The notes under the pieces: model-generated
The model's database searches: none
What the model saw: only the letters and a program-made list of their open reading frames with translations
What the model was told of the DNA's origin: nothing
Part shown: positions 12,938 through 57,751 of the stretch, piece by piece
Numbering within the stretch: position 1 is the stretch's first letter
Layout: each line of letters starts with the position of its first letter
Position numbers and translations under genes: made by a program
NCBI GenBank assembly: GCA_035772405.1
Contig: JAYKKM010000309.1
Location: 203,501-267,500 of the forward strand
Direction: 5' to 3'
Source of the DNA: Chrysogorgia sp. JL179-B06
Taxonomy: Eukaryota; Cnidaria; Anthozoa; Scleralcyonacea; Chrysogorgiidae
DNA: 64,000 nt

Positions 12938-13089
12938 TATCTGAATGGAATTATAATATAAATTAATTATTGTAACTGTTCATTGACTGAGAGAGTGTAA
13001 ATTATTCGTAATTGTTCGTATTTATATATTCATTTTATGTAAAATGATTATCTTTGTTGATCCAATGATTAAAAATTTTATGTTATTAA

Positions 13090-13723
13090 ATCATATACAG
13101 AACCTACCTCTATTGCTGAAATTCTAAACAATCATTCAACTATTGGAACCAAACTAGCAACTAGAATAAAAGAAAAACTTGGCCTTTTTACTCGAAATCT
13201 CTCGACCATTCCCGCAACTTCTACCACTCCCGCAATTTCTACCTCATCCTGCAAAAACAAATTTACTTTCCATGAAGTAGATGAAAGTTTCATATCTAAC
13301 CAAATTCAACAGCTAAAAACTAACAAAGCAATCGGACTAGATCGTATTAGTGCCAGATTATTAAAAGATTCTTCTGGTGTCATCTCTCCTGTTCTAACAA
13401 AGATATTCAACCGCTCACTTGACTCTTCAACATTCCCATCGTACTGGAAATTAGGAAAAGTAACTGCTATTTTCAAAACGGGTGATCGATGTAATGCCAA
13501 TAACTGCGGACCAATCACTATTCTTCCAACTGTTAGTAAAATCCTTGAAAAAACGGCACATATACAAGTTTACAACTATCTTACCAGTAGTAACTTTCTA
13601 TCTCCGCAGCAGTTTGGATTTCGACCTAAGCTTTCAACCGAAATAGCGTTAGCCCGTTTTACAGACATCATATTGTGTAATCTAAACAAAGGTTTAGCAA
13701 CTGGAGCCGTTTTCCTTGACTTA
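13090..13723 (+). pseudogene. LINE-A reverse transcriptase, first half
   Basis: This piece starts in the right copy of the 19-bp duplication. It encodes NKAIGLDRISARLLKD, VISPVLTKIFNRSL, FPSYWKLGKVTAIFKTGD, ILPTVSKILEK and QQFGFRPKLSTEIALARF, the ordered N-terminal blocks of a CR1/L2-like RT, then GAVFLDL where the first catalytic Asp lies. It breaks at the TA (13722-13723) that is the target site of the 11.2-kb transposon; the block resumes with SKAFDTA at 24,944. The frame across this piece is largely open. Confidence 0.85.
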
Positions 13724-13755
13724 CAGTACTGCTAAGAAATAACCTATCAAAAATC

Positions 13756-13871
13756 GCGTCTGTTTTGCGTTCGTCTTGCGTTCGTCTAGCGTCCGTCTAG
13801 CGTCCGTCTAGCGTCCGTCTAGCGTCCGTCTTGCGTCCGTCTAGCGTCCGTCTTGCGTTCGTCTTGCGTCT
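13756..13871. repeat. Left subterminal array of 11-bp repeats
   Basis: About ten head-to-tail units of GCGTCCGTCTA and its variants (TTG for TAG, TTCG for TCCG) start some 30 bases inside the left end. The same units lie in inverted orientation at the right end. Repeated subterminal motifs are typical transposase-binding sites; that function is inference. Confidence 0.85.
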
Positions 13872-14032
13872 CGCTGAAAGCTGTACTCGCTGGACGCAGA
13901 GCTCGCATCACGTTCGGTGATACGATTTCATTGCGAAGGTTATCCGAGTCGTTCTGTTCTGAATCTGATTGTTGATTGTTCTCTCAATCTCTCCTGCTCT
14001 ATCACTCGAATCTTGTGTTCACACAGATAAGA

Positions 14033-17000
14033 ATGGGAAAGCTTTCTCAATTCGCCAGAAATCGAATTGTATCGTTAAAATCTTCTGGCGTTTCCATTAC
14101 GAAAATCACAGAAATTTTGGAGAAAGAAGAAGGAATCAAGACATCGCGGTTTGCTGTAGGAAAGTTCATCGCTCGATACAATCGAACTGGTAGTACAGCC
14201 GATGCCCAACGCAGCGGAAGGAATCCCATTTTAAGTGTCAATGACCAAAACTTCATCGACGAGCAAATGAGCAACAACGACGAGTTAACATCGAGCGAGT
14301 TACAGAACCGTCTGCTTGACGAACGAGATGTAAGTGTTTCCAGCGCAACTGTTCGAAGTGTCCGACGAAAAATTGGATGGAAACACGAAAGGGCACGATA
14401 TTGTCAACTGATTCGGGAACCCAACAAAATAAAGCGGATGTGCTTTTGCTTAAAGGCATTTAGAGAGAAGGACGCGTTTGAAGATGCCATCTTCACCGAC
14501 GAGACGAGTGTCGAAATACAGCAGTACACGAGATACTGTTTTCGAAAGGGTGGTAGTTTACCGAAACGCAAAGGTCGTCCAAAACATCCGCTGAAAGTAA
14601 GTTAAATGTTTATTATTTTATGTAATAATTTAAACGAAGTGGCTATATTTACGGCAGGATTAACAACGATATATAGGCGGTTCGTTCCCAAACCCGCGAT
14701 TTCCGGCGAGTTTGATAAAAATTAGTTTGCCTTTTCTGCATAGTTTTGTTTGGTTAGTGTTAGTATTTTGATAAAGGTTAGTCTTTTGGTTATGATTAGG
14801 GTTAGGGTTAGGATTTTGGTGATGTTGGGGTTAGCATTTCGTTGAATTCTAAAATACTGCCGTAAATATAGCCTGGCGAAGTCCGTTTACGGGCTCGTAA
14901 ATATAGCCACAGCCTAGTATCATATGCTTGATTGTTTCTGGTTTGAACCGAGGGCTGCATCCCAAATATTCCAAAGACAATTAGTTTAATGGCTGCTCAT
15001 GTATTAATATTTCTCAGGGGCAGAAACATTTATTGTATAAAGTAATCTCACTCTTGGTTTTTACTAGCCTCCTTCGCAGGCATCACCACGCGAAAAAAAC
15101 AACATTCAACTTTTATCAGCATTGTTACTAGCTGCAAATGCCATGTCAATCCAATGTCAAGATATGTTTGCATTGATAACTGGATGTTCTCATAATGCTT
15201 TCTCAGTTGCTGACACTATAAACAGCCAAACAGGCCTGTGTCTGAGACAGCAAAACAACTTTAGATAAAAATGTGGAACCCTCGGCTATAATAATAGTCT
15301 GCGAAAGCAGACTCTGTATAATAAAGGAAAGGTTTTATATTGTAGAGTGAATGCAAATGTGGGTCCAACAATGTTTCGATTTATTGTATTCTTTCTTATA
15401 GGTCCATGTATGGGCAGGTATATCCCATCGTGGTGCCACGCAGGTTTGTGTGTTCACTGGATACATGGAGAGCCTTGGTTACCAAAAATTTTTGGAAAGA
15501 AACTTGCTGCCCTTCATTGCCAGTACATATGCAGATGGTCATCGGTTATGGCAAGATAATGACCCCAAGCACACCAGTAACTCCACCAAAAAGTGGATGA
15601 AGGATAATGGTGTTAATCATTGGGCAACACCTCCAGAATCACCGGTTTGTAATCATTATTCATAGTATACAGTAAAAACCTACATAAATGAACCACATTT
15701 TTCCAAGTCAGGCTAAAATGCTTCTTATATATTGGGTGTCTAGTGAGAAATCAAGCTGACTGGTATCTTAACAGGTTCTAATACAGTACGCGTATCATTA
15801 TCAATGTTAGGGAGGGGGTGGGGTCGTGCAAGGGGTGAGGATTTGACTATGTAACAATAAAAATTATCAAATACATAACCATTGGGACAAAATCATTGTC
15901 AAATTCCTTATTACCCAGGACAGATCCAGATTGTGTTCATACTTTTTAACATACTAAATCACCTGCTTGTTTCACTATTTTAAAATGGCTTTACTTTCTG
16001 ACAGTGGTTGTATACACAGTTCAATATTATTAAACTCAATTGATGATTTTAATTACCGTAAACAATTTTTGACGGTACTATTTTCATGAAGAAAAATTGC
16101 AAGTTTAAAAAATACCCCAGTTTACAAAATTGACTGCAAACAATGAAAATAAGTAGTAAGACATGTGACGAAGGGTATGTGTTGCTCAAACATACAGTGT
16201 AATGTCAATACGGGCAATATTAAATCTGAAAAGGTGAATGAGTTTTTACTATTTTTAACAAAATGAACCAAGAGATATTAAGAACAAATATTAAGGGTGA
16301 CCACTTAATACAGGTATTTGCCAAATCGTGTTGTTTATACAGTAGGTAATTTGGTGACCGTTCAATACAGTTTCAAGATAATGAAATATGTTTGACTGTA
16401 TTCACACTAAACATTAACCCAACTGTAGAAACTTATAAACTACAATGCTTTTTACTTATGTGTTCTTACCTTTAGTTATAAACTGCTTCATGCTGAACTA
16501 GTTCTTATATATAATTGGCTAAATTTCAGCCTGTAAGTTTCTTATTACATGTTGGTTTTGGTGAATAATCAACAGGTGAATAATCAATAATGGTGAATAA
16601 TCAATAATCAATAATTTTTGGTGAATAATCAATAATCAACAGTATAATTATGAGGTTTGATAATCCCCCGGCCCATGACCTCCTGCTACGGACCAGTGTC
16701 TTAGCCAGGATCTGAAACTTGGGTGTCCAAATTGGCCATCGCGGGCCAGAATACCCCTGAACGGGGGGAGTTGCATATTTGCCGGGAATCCCCCTGTCAA
16801 TGTGTATTCTAAAGGCTCAAATTGTAACTTTTCATTCTCTTTAAATTCTTACGATTCATTCTCATGCATTATTCATGACAAGAATCACGACTTACGAGGC
16901 TTAGTCGACAAAAATGTGCAACAATCGACGAATAGTACGAATAGTCGACAAATAGTATGAATATTTGACGAATCGTCGCTACTCGTCAATAGCGCGGTTG

Positions 17001-17612
17001 TGAATTCAAAATAAATGTCTTGTGCACGATAAATGTTTCGCTGATGGCCGATTTGACTTAATAAAGCTACCAAAATACTAGAGTAGCGAAAGGTGTCCTT
17101 TAGATTTCTTACTGGCCGTCCAAAAGGTGTCAAAATAGTAAATAGCCGTCCAAAAGCCGTCATCAACTGGCCGTCTTAAATCGAAACTGGCCGTCCAAAA
17201 GACGGCTGGCTAAGACCCTGCTACGGACATGTATTGGCTAAAATTCATCATTGGATTTTGCCATTCTCTGTAGTACAGGCGTACAGCTGTTTAATCTTTG
17301 ACATTTCATTATGCCCGAGAGCCACATTGGCTATAGCTATTGTTCATGATTTTCTGTGTATAATTTATTATGTACATCCAACTTTTTTCATTTACCAATT
17401 GATAGGATTTAAACCCAATTGAAAATCTGTGGGAAAACCTAAAACACCATCTTAGGAAGTACACAAAACCAAGAAACAAAGAAGAACTGGTTCAAGGAAT
17501 TTGGGATCATTGGAAAACTGTGACACCAGATATGTGTAAACGTTATATTGAGCATGTACATAAAGTTGTGCCAGCAGTTATTGCCTGTGATTGTGGTCCA
17601 TCTGGATATTAG
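14033..17612 (+). CDS. Tc1-like DD34E transposase, three exons
   Basis: Exon 1 is 14033-14596 (188 codons, donor AAA|GTAAGT), exon 2 15402-15644 (acceptor TTATAG, donor CCG|GTTTGT) and exon 3 17406-17612 (acceptor GATAG, stop TAG). All junctions are phase 0 and the sum is 337 residues, the usual Tc1 length. Exon 1 has the paired helix-turn-helix region (FARNRIVSLKSSGVSITKIT, then SATVRSVRRKIGWKHERAR) and the first catalytic Asp in IFTDETSVEI. Exon 2 has the second Asp in WQDNDPKHTS. Exon 3 begins DLNPIENLW with the Glu, exactly 34 residues after the second Asp. I chose ATG 14033 (MGKLSQF) by family likeness; an in-frame ATG at 13976 is possible. No internal stop is seen, so the protein could be functional. 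Splicing is predicted from the sequence only. Confidence 0.85.
14639..14910. mobile_element. MITE in transposase intron 1
   Basis: GTGGCTATATTTACG at the left is matched by CGTAAATATAGCCAC at the right, and a second inverted pair (TTTACGGCAG...CTGCCGTAAA) lies just inside. It contains a short TTAGGGTTAGGG run near 14,800. No target duplication is clear. Confidence 0.65.
15669..15790. mobile_element. Partial copy of the CAGTAAAAACC MITE family, intron 2
   Basis: TACAGTAAAAACC followed by TTTTTCCAAGT, AGGCTAAAA and CTTCTTATAT matches the left arm of the TA-flanked MITE at 44,238-44,737. The right end is not visible nearby, so this is probably a truncated or degraded copy. Confidence 0.5.
16555..16645. 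repeat. AATAATCAA-rich tandem repeat, intron 2
   Basis: Units of GGTGAATAATCAATAATCAA of variable length repeat four or five times. Confidence 0.7.
16694..17220. mobile_element. hAT-like MITE with 8-bp target duplication, intron 2
   Basis: The ends are CAGTGTCTTAGCCAG and, inverted, CAGGGTCTTAGCCAG. They are flanked by a perfect 8-bp duplication CTACGGAC (16686-16693 and 17221-17228), which is the hAT signature. Several GGCCGTCCAAAAG words repeat inside the right half. It is non-coding; the open frame at 16885-17166 is not a recognisable protein. Confidence 0.85.
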
Positions 17613-17891
17613 ACTGCAGTATATTAATTATTGTACTGTAGGTGCAATAATCATTGTGTATTCAAGTGAACAACAATATGATTGCTGGTGATGTCCTGCA
17701 TTGTTTTTCTATAAGTATCCCTCTGTAATAGCTATTTAAAAACAATTTACAGTACCATTTACACTATTATAATATTATCATCAACTGAACTATCAACACT
17801 GCAGTTTTTTTTTTAAGTAAAAGGATAGGGGAACTAAGTTACTAAGGTGTACATGTAAGTTGTATGTACAATCTGCATTCAATTTAACGTA

Positions 17892-17930
17892 TTAACAAGA
17901 CGCCCGCTAGGCGTTAACTTGGGCTACTGT
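17892..17930. repeat. Copy 1 of the AGACGCCCGCTAGGCG end sequence
   Basis: TTAACAAGACGCCCGCTAGG followed by CGTTAACTTGGGCTAC matches 18,128 and 58,951. The core ACGCC-CGCTA-GGCGT can form a small hairpin. Confidence 0.75.
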
Positions 17931-18127
17931 AGCCTGTGCATGGAGCTACCGTATGATGCTACAAGATACTTCCCAGTGCACATAACTGACTTCAAACACT
18001 TGCAAGCAAGTAGCTGGCTGGCAAAAACAATTCAGTTCAAACCACTTGATCAAAAAAGGATTTTATGTTGATGTTATTAACAAAAAAAGTTTGTGAGAAC
18101 TTTAGAATATCAAATGCAAATTTATAC

Positions 18128-18543
18128 TTTAACAAGACGCCCGCTAGGCGTTAACTCGGGCTACTTGAGCTAGTGGCTTGTTTAAAGACACTGTAGGCAA
18201 ATTCAATATATCCAAATATATATATACTTCCCAGCCACATAAAACGCATGATCGCAGGTTATTCGAACACTTGAAAGCAATCCTTTATATATCCTTGGCA
18301 AAAACTCTTCTCTTCGAAAGTCGAAACACGAAAAGAAAGACGCGCTCGCAAAGCCTGTTGGAGGCCTGGGCCCAAGTCTCGACCCCAAAAATAGTTACGA
18401 CTAACAAAAAAACAGGGAACCTAAACACTTGCTAACAGCTCGCAAAGCCTGTTGGAGGCCTGGGCCCAAGTCTCGACCCCAAAAATAGTGACGACCAACA
18501 AAAAACCAGGAAACCTAAACTCGGCTATCGCCCGAGTAAATAG
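18128..18543. repeat. AGACGCCCGCTAGGCG-family element, copy 2
   Basis: It starts with the same sequence as 58,951 and has the inverted words CTCGGGCTA and CGCCCGAG near its ends. Within it, 18348-18436 and 18437-18520 are a near-identical tandem pair (GCTCGCAAAGCCTGTTGGAG start). Sequence just downstream (for example GTGCAGGGGTGG at 18,730) is also shared with the 59-kb copy, so the true right boundary may lie further on or the copy may be nested. Confidence 0.55.
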
Positions 18544-19940
18544 TTGAAAAGAAATGAAACAGTTGTTTTGGTGAATTTCTCAGTGTAAAATCCTCTTAAT
18601 TTCTTAAATTTGACCAAAAAATCTGAGGTCCAGTTGTTTATTAAAGGCTGGAAAGTTGCCTTGTTGGCAAATATATAACAAATATATGTAAATACATAGT
18701 TAAAGTAATCAGATACAGTGCTGTCAGTGCAGGGGTGGTTAAATTTTCCAAACTTTCAACATTGGCAAACTGCATGCCAGTAACAAACCACCTTAATTAC
18801 ATGGAGGCAAGTTGGCTCACAAAGCTAGTCAGCATGCAGATGATTCCTGTTTATGCTGACACCATCAACATATTTCTAAGTTTAGTTCATTTATAATTCG
18901 AGTATGTTGGCCAGATTTAGTATTGGACAATTGACAAATAACTGTCATGGTTAGTGAGCAAACTCAGATACTGTGCCAGCTCAGCTGTATTAAATCATTT
19001 GCAAACTCAACATTATGCTCAATCAAATCGAAAAGCTATATCTACAAAATTTGTGAATAGACGGATAATAAAATGTATGTACATTCGGACATTCATAATA
19101 TATGTATCTGCGACAAGCAGGTATTAAAAATAATGAATAAACTGGTTGAAATTAGTACACGAAACATGACAATACCGTCTATACTACCAAAAAAATGGCC
19201 AATATTTTAGTGTTTTAGTGAAGTGGTAAATGAAGATATGCATTGCCCTTCAATAGGGGGTGTATGGATATTAAATGGCCCAATAAATAAGGTCAGATAA
19301 ACTACCAAATAAATGGGAAATAATTTTGTTTATCCAAAACCCCCATTTCTCTTTATTTTTGAAAAAGCCCACAGAAAACCTACTTGTACACTGAACTGTG
19401 ATTGGCCCAATTTGGCAATTAATGAATAATCACACTCTTGTGAACCAATAAGATTGTGGCATTTGTGAGTTATCACATAAAATGACCTGTTTTCTTGCAT
19501 CTTTTTAGTTTTGAGCACTCTTCTTGAAATACATGTATATGTGACATAGAAAAAATCTCATCAAATGCTTTTGTGGGTTTATATCATGCTTTTGCTGTCA
19601 CCACCAAGCTTCAAGAACATGTAGCAAAGCAAGGCTTGGTGGTGATAACAAAAGCATGAGGTAAACTTGCCTAAGTCCCAATTTGTGCAATTGTATCATT
19701 AACACTAGTTAAACATGTTAAAGATGTTTAGATGGAACCCTCAATTGCTAGTATATATAAGGTGACACTGGTAAAATTCTTGATTAGGTCTATGCCTGGG
19801 ATTTATGAATTATATACAGTACTGTACATACAAACTGGGTAAATAGATGTAGCTGAAAAAATTTAATTACAAAGTAATATAAATTATAAATTACCGATAG
19901 TTAAATACAGACTTGTACTCTAGGCTGATAAAATTAGAAT
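18544..19940. other. Transposon interior, no gene recognised
   Basis: AT-rich. The stretch 18,711-18,870 resembles 59,078-59,245. The inverted pair GCTTTTG...CAAAAGC (19,566 and 19,649) with CACCACCAAG/CTTGGTGGTG words suggests a small hairpin. The frame at 19330-19518 has no known motif. Confidence 0.35.
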
Positions 19941-20240
19941 TGCTGTGCGGCACAAGGTTCATTATCTCGGTTTTAATGAATAACATACCGTACTACGGTA
20001 ATTTGGCAAATATAAAAATAATGTGCATATTTAAAAAAGCTTAGAAAAAAGTGTTTAATAAAGTTTTCGTAATTAAGCAGAGTCAATGGCTTTGCTGTGC
20101 GGCACAAGGTTCATTATCTCTCGGTTTATGAATAATATACATACCACGGTAATTTGGAAAATATAAAAATAATGTACATATTTGAAAAAGCTTAGAAAAA
20201 AGTGTTTAATAAAGTTTTCGTAAAGCAGAGTCAATGGCTT
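19941..20240. repeat. 152-bp tandem duplication of the BEN-gene 3' end
   Basis: A unit starting TGCTGTGCGGCACAAGG at 19,941 repeats at 20,093 with few differences. A third partial match (GCTTTGCGGCAC) lies in the BEN reading frame at 20,236. The units include the final coding words (complement of AAAGCCATTGACTCTGC) and the 3' flanking sequence, so the gene's end has been duplicated downstream twice. Confidence 0.7.
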
Positions 20241-21015
20241 TGCGGCACAATTTCCATGCCTCACGTTTGTCCACCACACTGTATTTTTTAAAAATGCACT
20301 CTTTGATTTTAGTTAATCTGGGATCAATTTCAAGTCCCCGCTTTCCCTTAACACCTGCACAATTTGCACCTAGCAGTTCATCTCTGCGGAACATGTCAAA
20401 CACAAGGTTTTTGGCATAGTTTGTCATGGAAGAACTTCTTCGGAATATTTCCTCATATATTTGTGGGCTATCTGGCAAAGTGTTTTTCTCCAGCTGTACT
20501 GCCACACGAGTTTCCACATTAGAAAATTGTTCATTTCTTTCTAATGTCTGACTTTCTTCCACTGGCTCACTTTGTTGAACTGGACTTACCAGCAGTGTAC
20601 ATATATCTGAGTCAATGAAATTGGTCAAGACTTGTTGTTGTTGGCTATCGGAAGGTTCTTCCAACTTACTTATAGCAGTCATAAGTAAAGTTTTTATTTC
20701 TTCCTGGTTTGCTAAAACTCGATCTTGACAACAGCACGTTGTTGGCATGGTTTGCACTGCAATTGGCATACATTCTTTACGCGGGTGATGTACAACTGGT
20801 GCATGTACAACACCTACCACTTCTTCTGTTTGAGTCGAAGCATCATTCCCCTCCTCTTTCTCACAAAGCTCCAGCATTCTCTGCACCCTTAGTTGTTCCT
20901 CTGGACAGAGAAAGTCAAGTGATCCTGGCTTTTTTGCTGGTTTGGGCTTGACACCACTTATTGATTGCTCGATACAATCATCGCCTGGTGAACCCTCCGC
21001 TTCAATTGTAATAAT
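20206..21015 (-). CDS. BEN-like domain protein, terminal exon, carried in the transposon
   Basis: A 269-codon frame runs from a likely acceptor (TTTCATAG before 21015) to a TAA at 20206-20208. The first part is acidic and low-complexity, with Gln and Glu runs (QQQQ near the middle) and a basic patch KPKPAKKPG. The last 75 residues (YAKNLVFDMFRRDELLGANC, EIDPRLTKIKECIFKKY, EAWKLCRKAIDSALRK) resemble a BEN domain, an alpha-helical DNA- or protein-binding module found in chromatin factors and some viral and transposon-linked proteins. It is transcribed opposite to the transposase. Upstream exons are not resolved: the 21,153-21,404 frame has no phase-0 donor that fits. BEN identity is by eye and moderately confident. 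Confidence 0.6.
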   Translation of the reverse strand: MITIEAEGSPGDDCIEQSISGVKPKPAKKPGSLDFLCPEEQLRVQRMLELCEKEEGNDASTQTEEVVGVVHAPVVHHPRKECMPIAVQTMPTTCCCQDRVLANQEEIKTLLMTAISKLEEPSDSQQQQVLTNFIDSDICTLLVSPVQQSEPVEESQTLERNEQFSNVETRVAVQLEKNTLPDSPQIYEEIFRRSSSMTNYAKNLVFDMFRRDELLGANCAGVKGKRGLEIDPRLTKIKECIFKKYSVVDKREAWKLCRKAIDSALRKLY

Positions 21016-21152
21016 CTATGAAATATATGTGACAAAACATTAAATTTTTCGACCAGAAATATGACAATACTTTACACGCATATATAATTATTATTGTGAT
21101 TTTGCAAATTGATTTATGATCAGAGGATTGAAATATTCACGTTCGAAAATGA

Positions 21153-21404
21153 CTATTGAATTTTTAGCTTGCATTTAATAAAATACTTATTTTGAAGATA
21201 ACCAGAGCAAGCACATGCAGAGCCAGATTCACCCTGACTAGCATGAGTGTCAACCGTGGTGCATTGCGCGTTTGTGTTTATATTTCCGTACGATAACAAA
21301 GTGTTTTGAAGTGCTTTGTTGCCTACTTGATGTGGTATAAATACTTCAGAAATTCGCCTTGTCTTCTCAGAAAACCCTACAGAGGCTTTCTTATTCATCC
21401 ACAA
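21153..21404 (-). CDS. Possible upstream exon of the BEN-like gene
   Basis: An 83-codon frame starting MWMNKKASVGF lies about 140 bases upstream of the BEN-like exon on the same strand. It has no motif I recognise. No donor in this frame joins in phase to the acceptor at 21015, so the link is only positional and it may be a chance frame. Confidence 0.2.
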   Translation of the reverse strand: MWMNKKASVGFSEKTRRISEVFIPHQVGNKALQNTLLSYGNINTNAQCTTVDTHASQGESGSACACSGYLQNKYFIKCKLKIQ

Positions 21405-22494
21405 TCCAAATACATCGACTTGGAACCTGATTTTTTTGTTTGAACCTCGTCACTTGGTCTTCTACGCTTCGCCTCAGTCAAGGCTGACAATTCGAAACGA
21501 AAGTCAAGAAAATGTTGAGTTTTGTGAAAAATGCAGAAATAATTACTTTCTAAGGTATATCTTCTTTCAATTAAAAGACAAAATGAATAATTTATATCAA
21601 GGATTGACAAGATATTTATGGATGCAGTTCACCAAGGGAATTTCGTGCTTCAAAAAATGGCCGACCGAGCGTGCAATGCGTCACGGTTGACACTCACTCT
21701 TTAAGAATCCATAATTTTTACGTGTATGGTGATCTCATCCAAGGTGAGATTAAAATAAGACTCTGTGAACAGACTTAAATTTTTTACAAATTGAAACAGA
21801 AGTCAAATACAGTACAATGATCCCCTGTATAATATAATCATAAAATATTAATAAATGTAAAATCTTATATTGTTAGATGATGAAATGCGTCATGGTTTGT
21901 GTTCAAATAGCATTATAATGTTTATATTTACCATTTTTGGTTATCCTAATAGAGGGGCCCAAGGCACGGTTTTGAGACCGGGCAAATATTGCAGTGCTTT
22001 AGCAACGCTTTATATATCCCATGTGCGAGTTCGTTCGTTCAGAATCAACAACAAGCATCTACTTCATGTATGCAGATTTTTTAACGAACGCCACAGGGCA
22101 CCGCACTTTAGTACTGTGTACATGTAGGTTAATTCTCTATCCAGACCGACCAAAAATGGTAAATAAGTAAATAACATATTATTTGTTTATTATACAAGGT
22201 AAAAGAGTTACTTTAGTTTGGTAAAACTGCATTATTTGGATAAGGAAAGAAAAACAAACCAAAATACTTTAGTTTTTGTATAATATAATATAGCTATTTC
22301 CAGCTTAGTTGAATCAAATTCTGTATTAATTTTCCAGTTAATAATAAAGCAAAAATCACGATAACATTTTTTTAGCATTTTGGATTCTGTGAACATGGTC
22401 AAAATATCGTAAAATTCTGCCTGCTGCTGCAGCCAATCAGGTTACAGGAAATGCTGGGATTCTGCCCGCTCACGATACAAAAAAATAAAACATT

Positions 22495-22730
22495 TTATTT
22501 TTAACAATTCATCGCTCAGAATTATGAAAGTGCAACCGAACCACAGCATTAGCATGCTTCTAGTGTGGCAGAGGAAGCTACGACCATTATAAAATTAAAT
22601 GTAAAATGTTATGCTGTTATAATGATGAAACGCATCATGATTTGTGTTCAAACAGCATATTTTATTTTTAATAATTCAGCACTTAGAATTACGAAAGTGC
22701 AACAAAACACAGTATTAGCATGCTTCTGAG
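22495..22730. repeat. Pair of about 70-bp direct repeats
   Basis: ATTTTATTTTTAACAATTCA followed by AGAATTATGAAAGTGCAAC and TTAGCATGCTTCT near 22,495-22,565 recurs in slightly changed form at 22,659-22,730. A related pair (GCGTCATGGTTTGTGTTCAA and GCATCATGATTTGTGTTCAA) lies at 21,888 and 22,632, so a unit of roughly 740 bp may have been duplicated. Confidence 0.55.
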
Positions 22731-22872
22731 CAACAACGAAAAATCAACACCTTTAGGCACTATAGATACCAAAAAATTTCAGACCTTTCAGACCAAAAAA
22801 TTTCAGACCATGATACGTGTCACGCTCTAAAAATAGTTATATAATATCATTTGGCTACAAACTCGCTCAATG

Positions 22873-23515
22873 CAAAAATAATGTGACAAGATGACAGATC
22901 TATCATCTATTCTGATCTATTGTGCTTTTCACTGCTCGAGATTAATTTCATACGCAAAGTACTGCCAGAAGCTACACTATAATTTCGAGAAGAACGGCAC
23001 AGATTATTAAAAGAACGGCATCGAGACGACGATAAAATAACTAATTACATGAGCTATCTGAGTTCACTTAATGCATGCAAAATAATGTGACAAGATGACA
23101 GATCTACTGTAATGATCTATTCTGATCTATTATTGTCTTTTCGTGGCTCGAGATCAACTTCATAGTTCATACGCAGAGGCTACAGTATTATCTCGAGGAG
23201 AACGGCAGAGATTATTGAAAGAACGCCATTCAATATACGTAATACGGCGTCTACGAGACGACGATAACATTAATTATGCCGAATTACATATTGAGCTATC
23301 TGCGTACTAGCGCTGTCCATGCAAACAAATGTGACAAGATGACACATCTATTCCGATCTATTGTGCTCCTCACAAACATGTTTTTACGGCTCGAGATTAA
23401 CTTCATATAAAGTACTGCCAGAAGCTACAGTAATCTCAAGGAGAACGGCAGAGATTATTAAAAGAACGCCGTTGACGAGACGACGATAAATTAATTATGT
23501 CGAATTACATCCTTA
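22873..23515. repeat. Three-copy tandem repeat, about 190-240 bp per unit
   Basis: Each unit begins AATGTGACAAGATGACA and contains GGCTCGAGAT or CTGCTCGAGAT, AGAACGGCA-GAGATTATT and GAGACGACGATAA. Units start near 22,880, 23,085 and 23,328; indels of up to 40 bases separate them. Confidence 0.75.
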
Positions 23516-24735
23516 ACGCTATACCACCTAAACATGCGATACAGCAACAGAATTGCAAAATATTAACGAGATTTTTTTGCGACATGAGAATATTGCGTGG
23601 CAAGTTGAAATCTTTCAACTTTGAAATCTTGAAATCTTTCGCCAAAATAAGTCCATTATAGGCTGGATTTTCACTTGGCGATAGATGTCGCGCGAGCGAC
23701 TTTTTTTCTAGTCTGTCTTATATTAGCTATCAACTGGGACTAATTAGTATCTAGGAATCTATTGAATTGTGCATATTTTTGTCGCATCGTGTAAACGCGT
23801 CTTCACTCACGTTGATTAATATGTGTAACGTGCCGCCAAGGCATTGTATAAGTTTTTGATACGGGATCAAAAACTTGCCACTCTTTATCAATACAATTAT
23901 TATATCGTGAATACAGAGAAGACGTTGGGTTATCACGAGTCCCGGCCTCCCTACATCCAAAATTCAGGACGATAGTGAAAAATATCCGATAACTCAATAT
24001 ATTACATAGGCGGATGGCCCGATTTATCTTGCAACACTATTTAGTATTGCCACATAAATCGGCGTGTGTAAACCTTGGGTTATTACAAAGATAGATCTAC
24101 GGTCATCCAGTACTAAATCTACTGCTAGTTTAGAATTAGTTTTTGTTTCTTTAACGTTGTTTTGTTAGTTTTCATGTTCATAACTATCTATTTCCACACC
24201 GTTTTTATTAAATAAAACTTCTGCCGAAGGAAGCGTCACTATAAAGTTCCGTTTCGCTTGACTTCCTGGCGTCCTGCCACATTTAAATTTGGCGTTTCTT
24301 CGCAATCAACATTTTAACGGAATTCCTCGCACAATTTGCTGTATGTATTGAAAAGGTCTGTAGACATGTGTTCGCATTTCAGTCACTCATCCACTGATAC
24401 AATTATTGCTGTCTGCTTTTACGCAATATAAAACACTCCGACACTCAAATTTACTATACTCTATAGCTTCCTTTAGCTTTCGTCTAAAGAAAAACACATA
24501 CGCTTTCAAACTGTAGAGGAATTATCTAAACAACGTTCCAGTGACTTTTTAAAATGTTTTTATTCTTGCAAATAAGCTCCGCAGAAATTATGGATGTGAA
24601 CGTGCGACGTTTATTTGAGAGCGCTGAGAGCGCGGCGATTATTTGACATTAGCGCTAAATCGAGTACTATTCAATAATTAAACGTGTACCGACGTTTCAC
24701 GACAAGGAACTTCGGTTCTGCGTCTGTTACCCTCC
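23516..24735. other. Transposon interior, nothing recognised
   Basis: No open frame of note and no clear repeat. The minus-strand frames at 23751-23997 have no known motif. Confidence 0.35.
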
Positions 24736-24910
24736 CGGACGCAAGACGGACGCAAGACGGACGCTAGACGAACGCAAGACGGACGCTAGACGAACGCAAG
24801 ACGGACGCTAGACGAACGCAAGACGGACGCTAGACGAACGCAAGACGGACGCTAGACGAACGCAAGACGGACGCTAGACGGACGCTAGACGAACGCAAGA
24901 CGGACGCAGA
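24736..24910. repeat. Right subterminal array of 11-bp repeats
   Basis: About sixteen units of TAGACGGACGC, AAGACGGACGC and TAGACGAACGC, the reverse complement of the left array, end some 30 bases from the right terminus. Two variants tend to alternate, so the array has a 22-bp higher-order period in places. Confidence 0.85.
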
Positions 24911-24941
24911 CGCAGTGAGAGGTTATTTCTTAGCAGTACTG

Positions 24942-25591
24942 TATCTAAAGCATTCGATACGGCGGTTGGTTTTTGTTTCAAAAACTTACCTTAGCTGGTT
25001 TCTCTGATGAATCTACTAGTTGGTTCAAATCTTACCTATCAAACAGAAGCCAAGTGACCACTTTGTCAAATGCCTTCTCTCTCAAACCTATTTCTGTTGG
25101 CGTTCCCCAAGTAAGCATTTTAGGACCGTTGCTTTTTCTCATTTATATCAATGGTTTATCAACCTGTATTAATTACTGCAATATTTCTCTATACGCTGAT
25201 GATACAGTTGTTTACTATTCCTCTAACAATGCCCACGATATTGAAGAAAAGCTTAATTCTGACCTTGAACGATTATGTGGTTGGTTTAACGCCAACCTTC
25301 TTACACTAAATGTTTCTAAATGTAAATTAGTAATATACGGCAGCACTCGCAAACTTTCGAATTTTAGTCATGTTTCAGTAAAAGCGTATGACCAACCATT
25401 TGAGAGAACCGATTCATTTAAACGCTTAGGAGTAACAATAAATCAAAACATGTGCTGGTCAGACCATATTGATTCCATTTGCAAGAAAGTAAATCAACGC
25501 CTTGGCATCATCCGTCGTGTGAAACACTTACTACCTCTCCATGCTGGACTCACCCTTTACAACAGCCTTGTACTTCCTTTATTTGATTACT
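24942..25591 (+). pseudogene. LINE-A reverse transcriptase, second half
   Basis: The piece resumes with the SKAFDTA block and is open from 24,973 to 25,608. It has FSDESTSWFKSYLSNRSQ, GVPQVSILGPLLFLIYING, the catalytic ISLYADDTVVYY, then LNVSKCKLVIYG and the thumb FKRLGVTINQNMCWSDHI. Relative to the usual GVPQGS motif, Gly is Val here. The end, LVLPLFDY, is cut by the hairpin repeat. This part of the gene is well preserved. Confidence 0.87.
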
Positions 25592-26188
25592 TAACAATTA
25601 GTCACTGAAGTCGAGGTGACTATCGTTGAATATTTACCGAACCGCGAAGCGGCGAGGTAAATATAACGATAATCACCGAGACTGAGGTGACTAATTGTTT
25701 TAGTATAATTTCAGGCTTGAACTGAATATTCAATTGAGAAGTTTTAAATAGACAGTTTGAACTGTGTTATGCTCGATGTTTTCTTACGCTTGACAGCTTT
25801 CAAAAACACACTACGATCAAAACGGACGCACAAATACAAATAATTATACGATAAACAACTTCCTTACCCTTAGACAGTTCTATCTTGAGAGAAACCTGAT
25901 ATATACAATGTCTTTATGCTACGTTTTTGAGCCTTTTCGACGATTTTTTAGTTATAATAATATAGTCGCCATTTTGAAAAAAAATTCGTCGTGTTTTAGA
26001 AACCATACATCAAAATGATGATTCCGAGAGGGGACTGGAACGAATAAATATAGTCTGGTTACAAAAAACACTTTTTCAAGTATGATTTCTAGTAAAGTGA
26101 TAGTCACCGCGCTACGCGGTGACTATCGTCTCAGATTTACTGGCCAGTCAGCCAATCAGAGCTCGTTTAAGCTCAGAAATTATACTAA
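25592..26188. mobile_element. Hairpin-bearing repeat, about 597 bp (copy 1)
   Basis: It has a left hairpin (GTCACTGAAGTCGAGGTGAC, then ATTTACC...GGTAAAT, to GAGGTGACTAATTG), an internal TTTTAGTATAATTTC whose inverse GAAATTATACTAAA is the right end, and a second short hairpin (GATAGTCACCGCG-CTACG-CGGTGACTATC) near 26,097. No target duplication is evident. A second copy is at 62,198-62,747. It is non-coding; the superfamily is unknown. Confidence 0.72.
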
Positions 26189-30775: not shown

Positions 30776-31458
30776 TGTAACATGGTATCATATACCATGT
30801 AATATATTATATAATTATAAGACCTTAGTTAACCTTCCTCGTATGAATAAGCAAATACTTATTTTCCCACAAACGTGTAAACAGACATGAATCAGCATAG
30901 AGATTAAACAACCACAGGAAAACGCCTAGTTCCACAAACGCGTAAACGGACATGAATCGGCACAGCGTTGGTGGTTTTGTGGTTGCTAGAACTTGTTTTC
31001 ACATACTGTATTGCGTAGAGGAAATTCATCATAGTTTAGGAATTCTTCCTCTACCATGTATTATAAAAGCTGAGCACAATAGAGTATAGGAGGAGAAGAT
31101 TCAGAGGTATCACGAAAGCCAGTTAGGCTGAAGTGAATCACGAAAGCCAGTTAGGCTGGAGTATTGCAGAGATTGAAGAAACTGAACATCTATTAATCAA
31201 AGAATCACAAAGTTAAAGAACGAAGAAGATACCAAGACCAAAGTTGTGCTCAGTCAGAAATAAAGAGATAAGTTGAACAAAATAGGAAAGTTGTTATTAA
31301 CATTATAGAAATACATATATTTGAAGTATTAATAAATATTGTAAAAGGTAATTGGTTTCACGCTATATAGTGTTACGAGGAGAATATTATTGAACCCAAA
31401 ACTAGAGTCTACAAATAATTATAAACAAACAGTCGACGCATATCTCCTCCCCGTAACA
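30776..31458 (+). repeat. 5' LTR
   Basis: It starts TGTAACATGGTATCATATAC and ends CTCCCCGTAACA. It contains a short tandem pair around ATCACGAAAGCCAGTTAGGC (about 31,108-31,160) and a TATTATAAAAGC box near 31,060 that may be the promoter TATA. Confidence 0.9.
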
Positions 31459-37491: not shown

Positions 37492-38173
37492 TGTAACATG
37501 GTAGCATATACCATGTAATATATTATATAATTATAAGACCTTAGTTAACCTTCCTCGCATGAATAAGCAAATACTTATTTTCCCACAAACGTGTAAACGG
37601 ACATGAATCAGCATAGAGATTAAACAACCACAGGAAAACGCCTAGTCCCACAAACGCGTAAACGGACATGAATCGGCACAGCGTTGGTGGTTTTGTGGTT
37701 GCTAGGACTTGTTTTCACATACTGTATTGCGTAAAGGAAATTCATCATAGTTTAGGAATTCCTCCTCTACCATGTATTATAAAAGCTGAGCACAACAGAG
37801 TATAGGAGGAGAAGATTCAGAGGTATCACGAAAGCCAGTTAGGCTGGAGTGAATCACGAAAGCCAGTTAGGCTGGAGTATCGCAGAGATTGAAGAAACTG
37901 AACATCTATTAATCAAAGAACCACAAGTCAAAGAACGAAGAAGATACCAAGACCAAAGTTGTGCTCAGTCAGAAATAAAGAGATAAGTTGAACAAAATAG
38001 GAAAGTTGTTATTAACATTATAGAAATACATATATTTGAAGTATTAATAAATATTGTAAAAGGTAATTGGTTTCACGCTTTTTAGTGTTACGAGGAGAAT
38101 ATTATTGAACCCAAAACTAGAGTCTAAAAATAATTATAAACAAACAGCCGACGCATATCTCCTCCCCGTAACA
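37492..38173 (+). repeat. 3' LTR
   Basis: It is 682 bases, with the same termini as the 5' LTR and about 16 substitutions plus one single-base indel by eye. It is followed by the GTAC target duplication. Confidence 0.9.
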
Positions 38174-51421: not shown

Positions 51422-51712
51422 CAGTACTGGCACTGCTCAGAATTAACCTAACGAAAAACGCGTTCCGTACGCGTTCGGAACGCGACCGGAACGCGTTCTA
51501 TTCTCGTACCGAACGATATACTTTCTGTTTTAATCTCATCTACCAGCAATCAAATAATCAAGTTAAATCCGTTTACAAGTTTACTAAAGTCAGAAATTAA
51601 CGAAGTCTTCCCATTAACTTTTTAAGCGAAGTCACAATGATGTTCCGAACGCGTTCCGAACGCGTACGGAACGCGTTTTTCGTTAGGTTAATTCTGAGCA
51701 GTGCCAGTACTG
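51422..51712. mobile_element. TA-flanked palindromic MITE, CAGTACTGGCACTGC ends
   Basis: The ends are CAGTACTGGCACTGCTCAGA and its exact inverse, with TA on both sides (51420-51421 and 51713-51714). Terminal repeats run for about 60 bases and include ACGCGTTCCGTACGCGTTCG words rich in CG. The first eight bases match the ends of the 11.2-kb transposon. Confidence 0.88.
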
Positions 51713-51722
51713 TAACGCAGTG

Positions 51723-51747
51723 TTAGGTTATTTCTGAGCAGTACTGT
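51723..51747. repeat. Solo transposon end, AGGTTATTTCTGAGCAGTACTG
   Basis: GGTTATTTCTGAGCAGTACTG followed by TA differs by one base from the right end of the 11.2-kb transposon (GGTTATTTCTTAGCAGTACTG). No partner end is seen nearby. Confidence 0.65.
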
Positions 51748-54922: not shown

Positions 54923-56416
54923 CCGTAATAATCAGTCAAAATTTTATTTATTAATGATAGTTTGAATATGTGTAAATTCAACCCCAAATATCAGATGAAA
55001 TTTTGTTTCAAGTTTGTGTGTTGTTAAATATCCTGTTCAAAAAGGTACATAATAACTACAAAAACTAGGTCCAAAGTGGCCTCAAAATACAGGAAATGGT
55101 GCTCAGGGGCTTTTAATTTCAAAATCTTCCCGAGGGGCATGCTTCGGTGGTCTTGGACTACGCCCTCGATCCCCCACTTTCAGGTACCGATTTGCGCTCT
55201 TGGTTATCACTGTGCATCAAACTAATGCCTGTAAAACCTGTTCCATCCTAGATAACTGGGGATCACAATATCTACATAAATCTTCTGTGCATGGCAATTA
55301 AAAACAGCCACGAAACCTCAATAAAACATTAAATAATATATAACTTGAGACAGGACAAACGGAATAGAATTTTTAACAGCACGTTTTTTTAATTGTACTA
55401 AATACTGTAAAACAACAACATACAAAGAATAATTAATTTCCCTCTCTCTTCCCTGTCTCCCGAGTGGATTGCACTACAATTAAAACAGCACGTTAAAGTA
55501 CCTATAACCCGATATTACTGATATAGATTCTACATGAAGTGAATAATTGAGCAACAAAAACTTTAAATTTTTGAGATGTACGTTGATGTTCTGTAAATGT
55601 TTGTTTTCCCGAAATGCTGTGACGTCAGATCAGTCACCATTTCGGATACAATATTCCGCAGCTCGAGAAATTTCACTTAATTCAAACGTTGATGGTATAC
55701 TTAATCACTGCTACAATAGACATGTTATCAACTTTTCAACTCAAATCCTCAACCAGTTTATCATGCGGAAAGCATAAAAGAAGATAAATTCCTGGGATGT
55801 CACACTCATTCGCATTATAAAAACATAAACCTGTATTGAAGAAAAGATGAAATCAAAGAAACATTTCATTGTTCAATTATTTGCCTTATATAGAATGTTT
55901 ATAAATAATAAGAATTTAGGGAAGAGAGGCATTTTCAACGCTTTGTGTAAACTCTGCACTGACGTCGGATTCATAATATTACTTTCTTATCTCGTGTCAC
56001 ACCCACAATTCATTAATCACACTGAACCGTTAAATCATTTGTTCAACTGATTACCATGCACAGTATGCATGCTTACGATTCAAAATGTGTGATAACAACT
56101 TATCACACTACTTATCGCAAAGTAATGTTATTTTTTCGTTTTCAGTAAATAGTAACCAGAAAACAATTTAATGGTGGGTGAGTGTTTGAGATAAGATGGC
56201 CAATCGATGATAACTCTTGTAATAAATGATTTAACATGGCTCGTGAAGCTGTTATCACACCCGTTATCACTGCTTAATTATTTCTAAATGTACGCGAAGT
56301 ACTATTTTCCCTTACACGCGGTATCATCATCACGAGGTATCCAACTCACTCAAGAGTGAGAGTCCAAAACAGGCTTTCCATTCATCAAGCGAAAATTTTA
56401 GGACAAAAATCAAATC
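54923..56416. other. Unassigned sequence
   Basis: No gene recognised. The hairpin GTGTGATAA-CAAC-TTATCACAC is at 56,088-56,109. The frames at 55547-55777 and 55847-56050 show no known motif. Confidence 0.4.
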
Positions 56417-57751
56417 GAAAAATGTGGATATTCCCAAATGCCTTCTAAAGCATTTGTATACAAATGTATCTGAACAGATCTAAAAATGTAGATTTTCCCA
56501 AATGCCTTCTACGGCATCTGTATACAAATGTATCTGAACAGATCTAAAAATGTGGATATTCCCAAATGCCTTCTAAAGCATTTGTATACAAATGTATCTG
56601 AACAGATCTAAAAATGTAGATTTTCCCAAATGCCTTCTAATGCATCTGTATACAAATGTATCTGAACAGATCTAAAAATGTGGATATTCCCAAATACATT
56701 TAAAGCATTTGTATACAAATGTATCTGAACAGATCTAAAAATGTAGATTTTCCCAAATGCCTTCTAAGACATCTGTATACAAATGTATCTGAATAGATCT
56801 AAAAATGTGGATATTCCCAAATGCCGTCTAAAGCATTTGTATACAAATGTATCTGAACAGATCTAAAAATGTAGATTTTTCCAAATGCCTTCTAAGGTAT
56901 CTGTATACAAATGTATCTGAACAGATCTAAAAATGTGGATATTCCCAAATGCCGTCTAAAGCATTTGTATACAAATGTATCTGAACAGATCTAAAAATGT
57001 AGATTTTCCCAAATGCCTTCTAATGCATCTGTATACAAATGTATCTGAACAGATCTAAAAATGTGGATATTCCAAAATGCATTCTAAAGCATTTGTATAC
57101 AAATGTATCTGAACAGATCTAAAAATGTAGATTTTCCCAAATGCCTTTTAAGACATCTGTATACAAATGTATCTGAACAGATCTAAAAATGTGGATATTC
57201 CCAAATGCCGTCTAAAGCATTTGTATACAAATGTATCTGAACAGATCTAAAAATGTAGATTTTTCCAAATGCCTTCTAAAGGTATCTGTATACAAATGTA
57301 TCTGAACAGATCTAAAAATGTGGATATTCCCAAATGCCTTCTAAAGCATTTGTATACAAATGTATCTGAACAGATCTAAAAATGTAGATTTTTCCAAATG
57401 CCTTCTAAGGTATCTGTATACAAATGTATCTGAACAGATCTAAAAATCTGGATATTCCCAAATGCCTTCTAAAGCATTTGTATACAAATGTATCTGAACA
57501 GATCTAAAAATGTAGATTTTCCCAAATGCCTTCTAAGACATCTGTATACAAATGTATCTGAACAGATCTAAAAATGTGGATATTCCCAAATGCATTCTAA
57601 AGCATTTGTGTACAAATGTATCTGAACAGATCTAAAAATGTAGATTTTTCCAAATGCCTTCTAAGGCATCTGTATACAAATGTATCCGAACAGATCTAAA
57701 AATGTGGATATTCCCAAATGCCTTCTAAAGCATTTGTATACAAATGTATCC
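56417..57751. repeat. Satellite array, 64-bp monomers in 128-bp dimers
   Basis: About 21 monomers of 64 bases. Two types alternate: A (TGTGGATATTCCCAAATGCC, AAAGCATTTGTATACAAATG) and B (TGTAGATTTTCCCAAATGCC, AAGGCATCTGTATACAAATG). Both end GTATCTGAACAGATCT. The alternation is regular along the array, so the true repeat unit is a 128-bp higher-order dimer. CATTTGTATACAAATG in type A is a perfect palindrome. Confidence 0.95.

Follow-up and report, generated by a model that had tools for sequence, protein, structure and literature searches.

Transposons of the Tc1/mariner group are usually described as one-gene elements, and their usual size is 1.3-2 kb. The Tec/TBE elements of ciliates, which are related to Tc1/mariner, measure several kb and carry extra genes. 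In the En/Spm (CACTA) elements, the TnpD transposase is accompanied by the accessory protein TnpA, which binds to short repeats that occur several times in the subterminal region of each end. The VANDAL elements are Mutator-type transposons, and their VANC protein is not a BEN protein. VANC is described as targeting short motifs that build up into tandem repeats, and these motifs and the VANC proteins are reported to change together from one related element to another (PMC5735166). For the BEN proteins BANP and BEND3, a preference for unmethylated CpG/CGCG DNA and repulsion by CpG methylation are described, and BEND3 is characterized as a transcriptional repressor (PMC11472053). Here, we analyze a stretch of 64,000 nucleotides from the coral Chrysogorgia sp. 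JL179-B06 (contig JAYKKM010000309.1, or C309, positions 203501-267500; referred to as the window, whose own numbering is used below), which contains a large Tc1-type element at 13724-24941. All genome searches covered the assembly of 781 Mb in 522 contigs.

With the Tc1-like DD34E elements, this transposon shares the TA target, the cut-and-paste anatomy and a transposase that joins a paired-type helix-turn-helix to a DDE domain with the 34-residue spacing, but it differs from them in its full size of about 13 kb, its two introns, its regular second gene and its phased subterminal arrays. It resembles the Tec/TBE elements as a multi-kb relative of Tc1/mariner with extra genes, while the kind of extra genes, the host and the biology are different. 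Like En/Spm, it would combine a transposase with an accessory protein that binds subterminal repeats at both ends; however, it belongs to another superfamily, its putative accessory protein has another DNA-binding domain, and this protein is encoded by a convergent gene, whereas the En/Spm accessory is spliced from the same gene region. VANDAL elements of Arabidopsis (PMC5735166) likewise encode a DNA-binding protein in a second gene and carry tandem motifs that are not the same in all related elements; anti-silencing has been demonstrated there, whereas the arrays and genes described here are known from sequence. The C-terminal domain of the second gene product is similar to BEND3 in profile searches of the PDB but is very diverged, stays below the Pfam cut-off and is transposon-encoded. 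BANP and BEND3 prefer unmethylated CpG/CGCG DNA (PMC11472053), a possible parallel to the CpG-rich arrays of the element. Among the matches listed in a search of the open-licence literature, with Repbase outside its range, no report of a combination of Tc1 with a BEN domain was found; where BEN-domain and transposon terms were combined, the one listed paper that mentions a BEN domain does so in its references.

Our best explanation, for which we estimate a probability of roughly 0.7, is that the element is a copy of a Tc1-type (DD34E) cut-and-paste transposon with two genes, about 13 kb in full length and active in recent times, whose BEN protein would serve as an accessory end-binding factor. 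A conserved second gene for a putative DNA-binding protein, combined with phased end arrays that change their motif from clade to clade, suggests that the Tc1/mariner group can run a two-component system.

The insertion, its transposase gene and its sister copies

The element measures 11,218 bp and is bordered by the 22-nt terminal inverted repeat CAGTACTGCTAAGAAATAACCT, which was found by an end search of the window at 13724-13745 (plus strand) and recurs as an exact match over all 22 nt at 24920-24941 (minus strand). Immediately outside, the sequence reads TA on both sides (13722-13723 and 24942-24943), as expected for a target-site duplication. When up to three mismatches were allowed, CAGTACTGCTAAGAAATAACCT matched three times in the window (the third at 51725-51746) and never in 100 shuffles. 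Preceded by TA, it occurs 223 times (120 + 103) across the assembly, compared to none for the reversed control; the 20-nt element end had no match in viral contigs. The insertion interrupts the reverse-transcriptase frame of a long interspersed nuclear element (LINE) whose 5' part (13073-13723, plus strand) and 3' part (24944-25608, plus strand) were recognized by their open reading frames (ORFs) and by rejoining, the former also by LINE copies and the latter by Pfam (PF00078). Taking out the element and one TA exactly restores the LINE frame, which then reads GAVFLDLSKAFDT. We used the 200 nt of joined flanks as a query for related empty sites; among the 41 rows (two of them the window's own halves) obtained from the best 40 of 45 candidates, 10 LINE copies elsewhere span at least 199 of the 200 bases with 85-93% identity, and a further 14 span 199 bases with 77-78% identity. 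A sequence-only reading of the window had proposed one large Tc1-type insertion with matching ends, TA on both sides and a LINE reverse-transcriptase block that rejoins without it, and these points held in every respect, with collinear long copies elsewhere as further support.

The transposase gene is read rightward from three exons: exon 1 (14033-14596, 188 amino acids, first catalytic residue D156), exon 2 (15402-15644, D240) and exon 3 with the stop codon (17406-17612, E275). Exon 1 scored above the Pfam cut-off for PF13565, PF01498 and PAX, all pointing to a paired-type helix-turn-helix, while DDE_3 remained below cut-off when exons 2 and 3 were searched one by one; whole-length homologues possess PF13358. 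The translated exons join to 337 amino acids with no internal stop, and 34 residues separate D240 from E275, the spacing of the DD34E class. Intron 1 (14597-15401, GTAAGT..TATAG) and intron 2 (15645-17405, GTTTGT..GATAG) have GT/AG borders, and they are credible because database relatives end in them or read into them: P0011-P0013 terminate in the first donor, and P0010 runs into both introns. A GT is present at residue 188 in all 13 loci whose alignment reaches that point, among 20 related loci that include copies of one and the same family. The intron coordinates given in the sequence-only reading were exact, and the transposase frame of the window copy is, as predicted from the joined exons, intact. 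The best named relative, annotated as Tcb2 transposase, is from Paramuricea clavata (75% identity).

Three long copies on other contigs match the window element over almost its full length, with 96.6-99.5% identity by segment. All six exons of the two genes are open, with GT/AG borders, in the TA-flanked copy of 13,319 bp on C277. The same six exons are found in the C47 copy, which measures 15,796 bp including a 2.96-kb insert and has lost 10 nt in transposase exon 1, and in the C207 copy (497393-510184; 12,792 bp, about 700 bp of which were not fetched), in which the BEN-type gene has a broken exon 3, with one TAG and a match in two pieces. About 260 bp of transposase intron 2 are missing from C47 and likewise from C207. 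Inverted repeats together with a TA duplication were present in the window, C277, C47 and C207, as well as in the more distant C452 described below. All three sisters contain about 1.85 kb that are absent from the window at 22775/22809 and that encode exons 1 and 2 of the BEN-type gene, an absence read from an alignment gap (matches of at least 120 nt and more than 88% identity) and not from a separate search of the window. At this point, the window copy has a scar (22776-22808, from the sister alignment) with a filler made of repeats of the neighboring ACCAAAAAATTTCAGACC, which resembles what interrupted gap repair might leave behind. The window copy is therefore an internally deleted member of a two-gene family of about 13 kb, and judged from its remaining exons it cannot encode the full BEN protein. 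The 11.2 kb that had been taken as the element size must be replaced by the 12.8, 13.3 and 15.8 kb of the sister copies; the small single-gene format, a usual but not defining trait of Tc1-like elements, does not apply to them. The near-identity of the long copies is an indirect sign of mobility, and we consider recent activity probable as part of the best explanation as a whole.

The BEN-type gene and its linkage to the transposase

Exon 3 of the BEN-type gene, the last one and the one with the stop codon, lies on the minus strand at 20206-21015 (269 open codons; acceptor AG at 21016-21017) and was recognized by its ORF, its homologues and the sister copies. It matched eight database proteins with 35-80% identity over part or all of the exon, none of which has a name or a Pfam domain; a second, alignment-based protein search returned the same eight. 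All 24 candidates of a genome search with this exon were scored, and six copies (C309, C277, C47, C207, C114 and C275) matched at 91-100% over most of its length. The complete protein has 399 amino acids from three minus-strand exons: exon 1 (196 nt, encoding MSLRSITRSLAKRMLVFFEADK...) and exon 2 (194 nt, encoding DDPTKLSMAETDF...) were taken from C277 and joined in phase to exon 3 of the window, and the C277 exon 3 is itself open and 99.5% identical. A one-codon exon 1 at about 21934 (minus strand; ATG followed by GTAAAT, downstream of a TATA-like stretch) had been considered and was dropped because C277, C47 and C207 have exons 1 and 2 within the part missing from the window.

At the C-terminus, an 87-residue region (20209-20469, minus strand) places BEND3 BEN domains first in searches with family profiles, with everything else far weaker. 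While a profile of the whole family found BEND3 as its single PDB match at E values up to 10 (E 1.4), the profile of the last 87 residues retrieved four BEND3 chains (E 0.0032-0.052) ahead of a lipase (1.7), and a 12-sequence profile retrieved five (E 0.00038-0.015; next match 0.55), values that are weak in absolute terms. The region would be a strongly diverged BEN domain, strongly diverged because the Pfam BEN model stays below cut-off. Relatives of the protein were not confirmed in viral contigs (40 stretches) and were not found in phages, and ncbifam gave no credible match. Elsewhere in the element, the ORF list held no convincing further ORF at 17.6-20.2 and 21.1-24.7 kb; the minus-strand ORF at 21153-21449, the sole one from these regions that was sent to Pfam, gave a sub-cut-off match only.

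To relate the two genes across the genome, we merged 77 rows of BEN matches into 55 loci and scored the best 150 of 1,662 transposase candidates (92 rows, then 58). A transposase exon 1 lies within 16 kb at 30 of the 55 loci, compared to an expectation of 0.34, and the two genes are convergent in all 30 cases; the 58 rows scored later added no BEN pairs. A second family, C452 (11,572 bp, TA-flanked), has the same ends, the same convergent gene order and 22-bp arrays at both ends, while its transposase and BEN exon 3 are only 63 and 44% identical to those of the window by tblastn. The first transposase donor (behind KHPLK), the third-exon acceptor (in front of DLNPIENLW) and the residue at which BEN exon 1 ends are common to the two families.

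The protein distances of the two genes agree among ten family representatives (Mantel r 0.861; none of 20,000 permutations as high), and both gene trees contain the groups of the window with C452, C345 with C204b and C360, C196 with C321, and C204a with C270 and C75. The median ratio of nonsynonymous to synonymous divergence (dN/dS) was 0.09 over 12 transposase pairs and 0.136 over 16 BEN-domain pairs; these are the pairs with dS below 3 out of the 19 and 18, respectively, that gave values among 45 family pairs. In a midpoint-rooted tree of transposase N-termini (33 rows), the 12 BEN-linked rows, two from Paramuricea and one unnamed row form one clade (support 97/98), and the other 18 homologues, including those of mussel and pearl oyster, fall outside it, a picture that would fit one old acquisition. 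A BEN-less control clade was sought at eight loci; six of these had the arrays of known families, and C78 and C93 had neither end nor array. Transposase, BEN gene, ends and arrays have descended together through about ten families. The extra gene suspected as cargo in the sequence-only reading is real, but it is a regular second gene across these related families and not an acquired passenger. The meaning of its minus-strand ORF had escaped that reading, as had the internal deletion at 22775/22809 and the 11-bp arrays inside both ends.

Subterminal arrays and possible roles of the BEN-type protein

Repeat scans revealed a tandem array just inside each end of the window element. The left one (13756-13870) consists of 10.5 copies of the 11-bp unit GCGTCCGTCTA and stops 163 nt before the start codon of the transposase gene, and the right one (24736-24912) consists of the 11/22-bp unit CGGACGCTAGACGAACGCAAGA in inverted orientation relative to the left. 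Both are rich in CpG, with observed/expected (o/e) ratios of 1.94 and 2.02, compared to an interior value of 0.85 and a flank value of 0.97. Among 18 further left ends, several of which are copies of one family, we found arrays at 15, of which 12 reach the 60-nt minimum that was set for the control; 13 have TA followed by a complete end. Such arrays were seen in none of 43 control stretches of the window. No array was seen at C321, C78 and C93, and no complete end at C204b, C321, C113, C78 and C93. While the outer 22 nt or so are nearly constant, the main clades have different array motifs, all with the 11-bp period: AACGCGTTCCG or close forms occur at C345, C360, C339, C98 and C204b (22-bp), ATCCGCGGATG or close forms at C204a, C301, C270, C490 and C262, and GGTCGAACCTA in rotations at C196, C75 and C501, with close forms at C398, C113 and in the second array of C204a and C301. 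The window itself contains, at 51422-51712, a TA-flanked short element of 291 bp with a doubled end (CAGTACTGGCACTGCTCAGAATTAACC...) and repeats of the AACGCGTTCCG type; the further end CAGTACTGCTCAGAAATAACCT at 51725-51746 adjoins it, and the element is a miniature relative of the C345 and C360 families.

Because the array motifs change while the outer ends stay conserved, we suspect a separate reader of the arrays. The BEN protein is the candidate, since it is the only other credible gene product found and since BANP and BEND3, which belong to its domain class, prefer unmethylated CpG DNA. We infer array binding by this protein, its effect and the continued mobility of the element as follows. 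The Tc1-family transposase encoded by the rightward gene would recognize the conserved outer ends and insert at TA. The leftward three-exon gene, placed tail to tail with it, would provide a protein whose diverged C-terminal BEN domain attaches to the subterminal arrays of either end, which are CpG-rich and helically phased. Bound there, the protein would act as an accessory factor of the element itself, much as TnpA does for En/Spm in plants, and would help to bring the ends together, to keep them active, or both. We would rank end assembly as its most probable role, followed by anti-silencing and then repression. A more specific and more tentative version has the BEN protein sense methylation as the key to a co-evolving lock, reading the end arrays and thereby licensing the ends for transposition. 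It is just as tentative that the array sequence was rewritten several times at a constant 11-bp period, in parallel to, and independently of, the plant VANC and TnpA systems. About ten matched pairs of protein and DNA form a natural set from which the site choice of BEN domains could be learned.

Several observations weigh against this explanation. The Pfam BEN model PF10523 gave a match in only one of seven family members, and this was below cut-off (14.6 bits against 23.2; E 0.04); other Pfam scans of the protein gave no PF10523 match. CGCG occurs in two of the four main array motifs, and the other two contain only other CpGs. C75 has the motif of C196 yet groups with C204a and C270, C204a and C301 carry two motifs each, and neutral turnover can also reshape tandem arrays. 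At 25 of the 55 BEN loci, the scored rows held no transposase exon within 16 kb, and the unpaired loci include C378 and C86, which are close copies of paired ones. Some of the forks shared by the two gene trees are weakly supported in the BEN tree, and the recent pair C345/C204b has a BEN-domain dN/dS of 0.717, based on very few changes. The transposase of the C452 copy is probably broken, since its second donor is not clean and its exon 3 can be read only by using two frames.

Other roles of the array-bound protein have to be considered. Like VANC in the VANDAL elements, it might mainly protect the element from methylation and maintain its transcription, with little part in cutting, a role that we regard as possible but unlikely. 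VANC targets are likewise described as tandem motifs that co-vary with the VANC proteins (PMC5735166), and here, too, the motif differs by clade; the CpG o/e values of the arrays and the repulsion of BANP and BEND3 by CpG methylation (PMC11472053) would suit the same role. Yet our arrays lie just inside the ends in strict register, whereas the VANC21 targets are described in introns and upstream regions (PMC5735166). Both arrays are retained in the short derivatives, but this is expected of most derivatives that keep their ends. With this lineage, transposon-encoded anti-silencing in animals becomes a directly testable question. It is distinctly improbable that the protein acts as a self-limiting repressor of the transposase gene or blocks the ends, some BEN proteins being transcriptional repressors: the position of the left array 163 nt from the transposase start codon and the repression of transcription by BEND3 (PMC11472053) would be in line with it, but no known promoter lies beside the right array, and a pure repressor might often be lost in active lineages, yet the BEN gene is conserved.

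We see very little chance that the element captured the BEN gene from a host and carries it as a mere passenger. Its position on the opposite strand and outside the transposase gene would be compatible with a passenger, but gene order and orientation are conserved at 30 of the 55 loci, and the agreeing distances and low dN/dS values over ten representatives argue otherwise. An assembly error, or the chance adjacency of two separate insertions, has practically no probability left, as it is refuted by the sister copies: three collinear long copies stand on other contigs, and the window itself has paired TA ends and one rejoined LINE frame that is uninterrupted in copies elsewhere. The two-gene transposon with a putative BEN accessory factor remains the explanation that we prefer.

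Short derivatives and neighboring features

We paired left ends (best 40 of 466 candidates) with right ends (best 40 of 395) and found a listed partner for 28 of the 40 left ends. The spacing was 1,753-2,621 bp in 25 of these pairs; the remaining three measure 11,218 bp (window), 15,796 bp (C47) and 21,757 bp (C122, a derivative with a large insert). At 17 of 18 left-end loci other than the window and C277, the first 373-616 bp (up to 14,096-14,339 of the window) are joined to sequence from 22,882-23,672 onward. Several different breakpoints occur, some copies have suffered further internal loss, and the right end of L003 was not seen. These 17 derivatives keep the right part of the 17.6-24.7-kb region and lack transposase exons 2 and 3 in the fetched stretch; the eighteenth locus (C442) continues into exon 2 and then stops. 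Three diverged direct repeats of about 210-245 nt in the right non-coding part (22863-23510) survive completely or for the most part in 12 of these 17 derivatives. Short copies with the same ends had been named in the sequence-only reading as a finding that would contradict a large element; such copies do exist (25 of 28 pairs at 1.75-2.62 kb), but they are deletion derivatives and not the parent form. Because 223 ends contrast with six copies of BEN exon 3, the family consists of few large parents and many internal-deletion derivatives. This is the usual pattern of cut-and-paste families, and it calls for caution, as short Tc1 copies in such genomes may derive from much larger parents.

Among the transposase matches, 20 of 150 rows are remnants of 157 codons that resemble each other (50% identity over residues 1-173; two TGA and one TAA). 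The left end of C398 (L089) has an array like that of C196, and remnants and array together mark an amplified non-autonomous subfamily with a kept transposase fragment. In L025-L027 (C122), an insert of about 19.6 kb separates the derivative into two parts, with about 7 nt of flank overlapping.

An inverted-repeat stretch with 27-nt arms (TGAGTGTCAACCG...) at 21244-21696 of the window is probably a nested element in the intron of the BEN gene. A stretch in L007 (2954-3345), next to the derivative there, is 92% similar to it; C277 bears a separate palindromic insert of 353 bp at its edge. Outside the element, the window contains a 64/128-bp tandem satellite at 56414-57750 (about 21 copies of the 64-bp unit) and, 6.7 kb apart at 31109-31162 and 37825-37878, two two-copy tandems of the 28-bp unit ATCACGAAAGCCAGTTAGGCTG(A/G)AGTGA.

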